Part shown: positions 54,957 to 55,878 of the stretch, in pieces
How the letters are laid out: each line of letters opens with the position of its first letter
Numbering within the stretch: the first letter of the stretch is position 1
Assembly (NCBI RefSeq): GCF_947036865.1
Contig: NZ_CAMQSF010000017.1
Location: forward strand, 1 to 64,000
Length of the DNA: 64,000 nt
Reading direction: 5' to 3'
Source of the DNA: an uncultured Caulobacter sp.
GTDB taxonomy: Bacteria; Pseudomonadota; Alphaproteobacteria; Caulobacterales; Caulobacteraceae
Made by a program: the position numbers and the translations under genes
Notes under the pieces: model-generated
What the model was told of the DNA's origin: nothing
Databases searched by the model: none
Seen by the model: only the letters and a program-made list of their open reading frames with translations

Positions 54957-55084
54957 AGACGGTCCATTTTAGGTGGATTCGGACGCAGGCATCGACGACG
55001 CGCGTCGCGCGCGGACTTCTTCGTTGAAAAGTCGCGCGATAACAACCTAGAGTAATTCCGAGAAGCGGGTGGCCGGTCGGTCGA

Positions 55085-55212
55085 ATTCAGCGCGCGAGCG
55101 GGCGCCGGGCCTGAAGACGAATTACCCCGGCCGCATGCTGACGCAGAGGCGAAACCGGGGTGTCCGAGGGGAAAGATAGATGAAACCCCGCCGCCTTGCA
55201 AGAATGGGCTGA
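55085..55212 (+). ncRNA. Putative structured leader / ncRNA upstream of the Abi-family gene (boundaries approximate)
   Basis: ACCCCGG (55124-55130) / CCGGGGT (55155-55161) stem; GGGG (55168-55171) / CCCC (55186-55189) stem; second ACCCCG (55185-55190) competes for CGGGGT. Confidence 0.4.
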
Positions 55213-55215
55213 GCC

Positions 55216-55869
55216 ATGGCGCGGATCGACGACATGGAAACGGCGCTCTCGCTTGAGCGGTTCGGCCGCTATGTCGCCTGGGCCGGCGGGGATCGCGAGC
55301 GGGCCTTGGACCTCTACACGCTCAACACCCGAGTGTCCGAGGCGCTCTACATCGCGCTCCAGACCCTGGAAGTCAGTCTGCGTAATCGCATCCACACCGT
55401 GATGGCGGCCAAGCACGGCGAGCGCTGGTTCCAGGACGCCGACCTGATCAAAGCGCCGCTCCAGCGAGCCCAGGTCGCCGAGGCGATCCGCGACCTGGAA
55501 GCCGAGGGCAAGGACACAACGGCGGGCCGGGTCGTGGCGGCCCTCAGCTTCAGCTTCTGGACGGCGATGTTCAGTCCCGCCTACGAGGACCTCTGGCGTT
55601 CGACCTTGCGGTTCATCGCCGTCCGCGAGGGCAAGGGTTTGACGCGCAAGGACTTCTCGCGACCGCTCACTCAGATCCGGCTGCTGCGCAACCGGGTCGC
55701 CCATCACGAGCCGATCCTGCACTGGGATCTCCATCGGCATCACCGCCTGCTGCGCGAGCTGACGCTGTGGCTGTCGCCCCCGGCGTTCGCCTGGAGCCGG
55801 GCCTTGGACCGGTTCGAAGCGGTCTATCCGGCTGAAGGCGCGCTGCTGGCCCGCGACGCCCAGGACTGA
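55216..55869 (+). CDS. Abi-family (AbiD/AbiF-like, Abi_2) HEPN protein
   Basis: MARIDDMETALSLERFGRYVAWAGGDRERALDLYTLNTRVSEALYIALQTLEVSLRNRIH ... PLTQIRLLRNRVAHHEPILHWDLHRHHRLLREL; HEPN RNxxxH at 55687-55704. Confidence 0.8.
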   Translation: MARIDDMETALSLERFGRYVAWAGGDRERALDLYTLNTRVSEALYIALQTLEVSLRNRIHTVMAAKHGERWFQDADLIKAPLQRAQVAEAIRDLEAEGKDTTAGRVVAALSFSFWTAMFSPAYEDLWRSTLRFIAVREGKGLTRKDFSRPLTQIRLLRNRVAHHEPILHWDLHRHHRLLRELTLWLSPPAFAWSRALDRFEAVYPAEGALLARDAQD

Positions 55870-55878
55870 GAGTCGCCG

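Follow-up and report, generated by a model that had tools for sequence, protein, structure and literature searches.

A conserved hairpin RNA upstream of a predicted AbiF-type HEPN ribonuclease gene in an uncultured Caulobacter sp.

Results

An AbiF-type unit inserted between two neighboring genes

The window, a stretch of 64,000 nucleotides from contig NZ_CAMQSF010000017.1 of an uncultured Caulobacter sp., contains an AbiF-type unit composed of a promoter region, an RNA, and a toxin gene on the plus strand (54957–55872; end coordinates approximate). Judged by eye, the unit is flanked by an ArsR-like HTH gene and an oxidoreductase-like gene, which are neighbors in relatives. In two genomes of the same genus, G605 and G134, the flanking genes lie next to each other, and 29 and 24 unaligned nucleotides, respectively, separate the alignments. 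Therefore, the unit represents an insertion of about 0.9 kb in the window, or a loss in G605 and G134. Within the family sample, the toxin gene was not found in any other genome of the genus.

The gap between the preceding ORF and the toxin gene is 259 bp long (54957–55215). A consensus scan of the plus strand yielded one promoter-like sequence, TTGAAA-N18-TAGAGT (55024–55053), compared with a mean of 0.0 in shuffled sequences, and this is a candidate promoter. In many relatives, both chromosomal and plasmid-borne, an HTH_36/DnaD_N-like gene of about 160 codons precedes the RNA, and it is located directly ahead of the RNA at L161:3391–3873, L162:3382–3879, and L163:3408–3893 and in L002–L008 and L020–L023. 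It is possibly a third member of the operon that was lost from, or never present in, the window, where a search for an HTH_36 remnant found none. The rhizobial plasmid copies (L161:234–1711 and L164) adjoin genes for a SMODS-like nucleotidyltransferase and a DUF6602 protein, a defence-island-like setting.

The toxin gene encodes a predicted HEPN ribonuclease

The ORF at 55216–55869 on the plus strand encodes a protein of 217 amino acid residues carrying LLRNRVAHHEPIL. It matched Pfam Abi_2 with 37.8 bits against a cut-off of 25.6 (E 3.2e-9), and PADLOC assigned it to PD-T4-5/AbiD. The HEPN catalytic motif RNRVAH (R158–H163; 55687–55704, plus strand) is of the R(N/H/D)xxxH type, and R158, N159, R160, H163, and H164 were invariant among 36 relatives. 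Because a sequence search of the PDB with the toxin gave no match, a fold search was needed. The AlphaFold2 model of the toxin had a pLDDT of 94, and its top PDB match in Foldseek was 8VZ6, a PbAbiF dimer in complex with its ncRNA (probability 1.00, E 3e-3, TMq 0.57). The remaining PDB matches listed had probabilities of at most 0.12, leaving 8VZ6 as the sole convincing one. By family, motif, and modeled fold, the protein is an Abi_2/AbiF-type HEPN RNase with predicted toxicity, in agreement with the original prediction of an AbiF-like HEPN protein.

The leader contains a conserved three-helix hairpin RNA

The covariance model R1 matched the plus strand at 55119–55167 with 63.4 bits (E 9e-16 in the window), a score that is partly by construction because the window copy is one of the 27 training sequences of R1. 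In the outer helix P1, ACCCCGG (55124–55130) pairs with CCGGGGU (55155–55161). According to the fold, CGC (55132–55134) pairs with GCG (55149–55151) in P2, and UGC (55136–55138) pairs with GCA (55143–55145) in P3 around the loop UGAC. P2 and P3 are nested inside P1, forming a three-helix hairpin.

The 45-nt core (55119–55163) folded alone into P1–P3 with −20.7 kcal/mol and a z-score of −2.9, and 3 of 200 shuffled sequences were equally stable, whereas the entire leader (55085–55218) was not unusually stable, with a z-score of −0.62. Thus, by folding, only the first stem was above chance, and comparative data confirmed this stem. Over 27 sequences, 89.6% of cells paired, compared with 38–49% when the partners were slid. 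Among the 53 R1 matches, whose alignment was fitted to the structure and is therefore biased towards P1–P3, 93% of cells paired overall and 96.8% in P1, two-sided changes occurred at 7 of the 13 pairs and in all three helices (shuffled mean 3.5, none of 500 shuffles as high; at most 4 with slid partners), and the covariation score was 0.117 versus 0.061. A lack of conserved structure or covariation across orthologous leaders had been named as grounds for refuting the proposal; the structure is conserved. The double changes in P1 were CG to UA, GC to AU, and AU to GC or CG. Both modeled pairs of P2 showed two-sided changes, with CAC/GUG in L166 and L167, and in P3 the UA pair was invariant while the inner end was CG, UA, or GC. 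When 12 diverse copies were submitted to RNAalifold with no structure supplied, P1, P2, and P3 were returned. In L166, which is from outside the class and was not among the training sequences of R1, pairs were altered yet kept in all three helices.

The hairpin lies upstream of relatives that share approximately 32–78% protein identity and belong to many families of Alphaproteobacteria and some of Gammaproteobacteria. For the closest relatives, the upstream consensus is AAA..., then ACCCCGG-CGC/CCG-AU-GCC-nnnn-GGC-AGAG-GCG/CGG-nn-CCGGGGUgU. These results indicate that the leader holds a genuine conserved hairpin RNA.

The hairpin is followed by a linker of fixed length and a CAA element

A 38-nt linker (55161–55198, plus strand) with a conserved UGU(A/C)C at its start, but otherwise of variable sequence and fixed length, separates the hairpin from a CAAG element (55199–55202, plus strand) at a fixed distance from P1. 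Of 42 distinct leaders, 38 had CAA exactly 37 or 38 nt after the final base of P1 (shuffled mean about 3, maximum 9), and CAA was found 36–39 nt after P1 in 39 of the 42 (null mean 3.2, maximum 9). Column conservation within the linker was limited to UGUAC at its start and TA at 22 nt before CAA. A −10 box in the linker was rejected, since only the TA is at a fixed distance and a matching −35 is absent. A role of the linker as a guide was also rejected: two linkers searched against 50,697 phage records gave best E values of 0.7 and 2, which is chance level.

Among the leaders with the R1 hairpin, CAA lies at varying distances from the start codon, and CAA as part of an ORF or a start codon was rejected for them on this ground. 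In leaders with other hairpins, [G/U]CAA was present ahead of the gene in 28 of 31 (shuffled sequences 6.2, maximum 11), near the start codon, and in a few of these CAA falls inside the ORF (MAESQ...). In G373, the whole RNA unit including CAAG is present in three tandem copies before the gene and one behind it, compared with one copy in the window. Since these repeats include CAAG and the start codon follows CAA at no fixed distance, the RNA unit probably ends at CAA and runs for about 90 nt from its A-rich 5′ end. The tandem units (L054; G373:C68, minus strand, 1103–2626) are about 200 bp each, with the fourth behind the abi gene. By analogy with tested systems, the CAA element is probably a recognition site or a mark for processing of the RNA at a fixed distance, and the constant spacing suggests that a cut or contact is positioned relative to the bound hairpin.

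The hairpin RNA is linked to Abi-family genes

A search of 385 genomes of the class with R1 gave matches at E ≤ 0.01 in 18 genomes. Among the 19 places with at least 40 bits, many of which were training sequences, 14 adjoined an Abi-family ORF or fragment; this linkage is partly by construction, as most sequences of the model came from a protein search. Four of the 19 places (L073/L076, L086, L087, and L095) were without an Abi gene. When the sample was widened to 399 genomes of the phylum, three new places of 33–53 bits, not used to build R1, each immediately preceded an Abi gene. A fourth, of 30 bits and without an adjoining Abi gene, is probably a chance match. The hairpin is on the same strand as the toxin gene and usually 70–140 nt ahead of it. 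On the protein tree, toxins with the R1 hairpin clustered (3 changes versus 18.6 with shuffling), and the toxin of the window belonged to a well-supported set of 16, all 16 of which had the hairpin.

Several loci had unusual arrangements. In L079, a further one of the 19 places, the RNA is separated from the start of the Abi gene (L067) by an insertion sequence (G559:C96). In L073 (G552:C41:35056–35105), an intact RNA without an abi gene precedes a VOC/glyoxalase-like gene, as judged by eye, and may be a decayed module or a stand-alone antitoxin. On plasmid pTK2 of Sphingobium sp. TKS (L160:3000–3047), the RNA and the first abi codons are fused into other sequence, and an annotated sigma-factor-like ORF overlaps the RNA. 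Presumed prophage or virus contigs (L121, L122, L125–L127, and L132) contain Abi genes with R1-type or diverged hairpins of 22–64 bits, and CAA follows at about 36–38 nt in most of them. Exact 15-mer matches in 40 viral contigs, none of which was R1-positive, were discarded as chance, as were most matches of a loose inverted-repeat pattern in the class.

The hairpin RNA does not match known RNA families

The original prediction could not tell whether the leader matches a known RNA family. In a scan of the window with Rfam 15, no family, RF03085 (abiF RNA) included, reached its gathering score, and the weak matches of ylbH and BjrC68 below their gathering scores were treated as chance. RF03085 gave no match when the leader was searched at E ≤ 10 and 34 related loci at E ≤ 1, while the same tool detected it in phiC2 with 37.6 bits as a positive control. 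Conversely, R1 gave no match in phiC2. The hairpin RNA resembles the RF03085 RNA in position, being located upstream of an abiF gene. It is an AbiF-associated RNA absent from Rfam 15, set apart from RF03085 by covariance model and by conserved letters. To our knowledge, RF03085 is the only AbiF RNA family in Rfam. Four conserved strings of the hairpin RNA had no occurrence in the literature searched, outside which Zilberzwige-Tal et al. lies.

Other hairpin classes were observed ahead of more distant proteobacterial Abi_2 genes (L028–L042, L056–L071, L134, and L140), for example GATGAGGGGAGGCTTTCGCCCGCATGTCTCAAAGCC and CCCCGCGAGGGC...GTCGCGGGG. Sixteen loci with such hairpins gave no match to abiF RNA in an Rfam scan, and these classes are probably further unrecorded AbiF RNAs.

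Discussion

The leader had been proposed to be either a cognate RNA antitoxin or an attenuator in which competing stems control the toxin gene. The sequence elements concerned, ACCCCG (55124–55129), CGGGGT (55156–55161), a second ACCCCG (55185–55190), and GGGG (55168–55171), are all present at these positions, so that the window does contain a GGGG/CCCC pair and a second ACCCCG with which an attenuator or a riboswitch-like switch could operate. Lactococcal AbiD1 has a regulatory 5′-UTR (cited in PMC12373285), and the terminator-bearing RCd22 of C. difficile also shows cis termination. However, no terminator was found on the plus strand of the leader, P1 is kept everywhere, and the second ACCCCG is replaced or missing in relatives, being absent from rhizobial leaders. 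The alternative pairing in relatives reaches at most about 4 bp versus 7–8 bp in P1. Linker stems of at least 4 bp occurred in 22 of 28 distinct leaders versus 19.7 in shuffled sequences, or 19 versus 15.8 with limited loops, neither being significant. The competing-stem switch was rejected on these grounds, and attenuation is highly improbable; the antitoxin half of the proposal stands as the most likely role, by analogy with two tested AbiF systems.

The arms of P1 are also inverted repeats, and the HTH_36/DnaD_N-like gene ahead of the element in many relatives could encode a protein binding the palindromic CCCCGG...CCGGGG, in which case the element would be a conserved DNA site for a regulator or recombination instead of an RNA. 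This is scarcely plausible: loci without the HTH gene (the window, L001, L009, L013, and L015) retain the element, the internal loops around which P2 and P3 covary are asymmetric, the orientation towards the gene is constant, and CAA is at a fixed distance on one strand. Another explanation is an autoregulatory 5′ leader, in which the toxin would bind, and perhaps cut, the leader of its own mRNA to limit expression, the RNA would not act in trans, and leftover toxin would be neutralized otherwise. The absence of a terminator between the RNA and the gene, together with the absence of the conserved nucleotides of RF03085, makes a purely cis role in translation or mRNA decay possible; the same-strand position of the RNA shortly ahead of the gene and the [G/U]CAA near the start codon in leaders with other hairpins are in line with it. 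On the other hand, the tandem units and the copy behind the gene in G373 and the constant hairpin–CAA distance despite a varying distance to the start codon argue against an autoregulatory leader, and the tested AbiF RNA RCd22 acts both in trans and in cis (PMC12373285). We regard this explanation as unlikely.

The preferred interpretation, which we consider likely, is a toxin–antitoxin or abortive-infection module of the AbiF type, similar to type III systems, in which the hairpin RNA would keep the HEPN RNase inactive. The RNA is read as an antitoxin because two tested AbiF systems use a cis-encoded ncRNA to bind and neutralize the toxin (PMC12373285 and PMC12737573). A few strong RNA copies without an Abi gene count against a toxin/RNA pair, which would leave them only by decay. 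The locus encodes a real, probably functional RNA/toxin pair of the AbiF type. Directly observed were the family, catalytic motif, and fold match of the protein, the structure, covariation, and linkage of the RNA, its fixed spacing to CAA, and the insertion relative to the sister genomes. The RNA–protein binding, neutralization, processing, and phage defence described here are predictions, with antitoxin action and processing modeled on AbiF/AbiFr and RCd22. One transcript would carry the 5′ RNA unit, consisting of the hairpin, the 37/38-nt linker, and CAA, followed by the HEPN ribonuclease. The hairpin RNA would bind the HEPN dimer and block its active site, so that the cell stays alive. The nuclease itself would probably trim the transcript near CAA, at a defined distance from the hairpin to which it is bound, and this trimming would free the antitoxin RNA and limit the mRNA of the toxin. 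If the RNA supply failed, for example, when a phage shuts off transcription, free toxin would cut cellular RNA.

The hairpin RNA provides a well-supported second AbiF RNA family besides RF03085, in Proteobacteria. The covariance model, the list of conserved nucleotides, and the rigid hairpin–CAA spacing make recognition and trimming of the RNA by AbiF directly testable, and the R1 hairpin can serve as a marker for unannotated AbiF toxin–antitoxin units on plasmids and prophages. RNA-guided Cas13 is considered to descend from AbiF/AbiFr. It is conceivable, although we hold it rather doubtful, that this distinct AbiF antitoxin RNA family absent from Rfam 15 works with a HEPN enzyme measuring a fixed run of 37/38 nt from the bound hairpin to CAA, and that this geometry, a hairpin with a variable segment of fixed length and a cut by a HEPN pair, resembles the origin state of the repeat-plus-spacer crRNA of Cas13.

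Type III toxin–antitoxin systems (ToxIN) have the same order of RNA and then RNase on one strand, with the RNA directly upstream and occasionally in tandem repeats, whereas usually one RNA copy is present here. The toxin here is a HEPN protein, in contrast to the ToxN fold in ToxIN. In PbAbiF–AbiFr, as reviewed in PMC12737573, the RNA is both complexed with the toxin and processed by it. PbAbiF (8VZ6) and the protein of the window have in common the HEPN fold (Foldseek rank 1, probability 1.00), RNxxxH, and a cis-encoded structured RNA, but the latter is shorter (217 residues versus a chain of 297), with 16% identity over the structural alignment of the two proteins. In RCd22–AbiFCd of C. difficile phi027/phiC2, the RNA neutralizes the toxin by binding it, both in cis and in trans, and mutating R/H abolishes toxicity (PMC12373285). 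There and in RF03085, the RNA is likewise located just upstream of the toxin gene on the same strand, and the plan is shared: a hairpin of about 37–40 nt with a G+C-rich outer stem, an internal loop, and a short inner stem, with doubled copies possible. The conserved letters differ, being GCAU...GCAGAG.C here and AAGC...GCUCAAAU there; RCd22 has a terminator, unlike the RNA of the window, and phiC2 is without the 37/38-nt linker to CAA. In Cas13an, the HEPN domains group with AbiD/F, and its own RNA is cut 23–24 nt from the repeat (PMC12165695). No CRISPR array was seen here, and the two linkers had no significant phage match and no sign of a guide; the Cas13an crRNA and the present system are nevertheless alike in combining a HEPN enzyme of the AbiD/F clade with a hairpin RNA that has a segment of set length.
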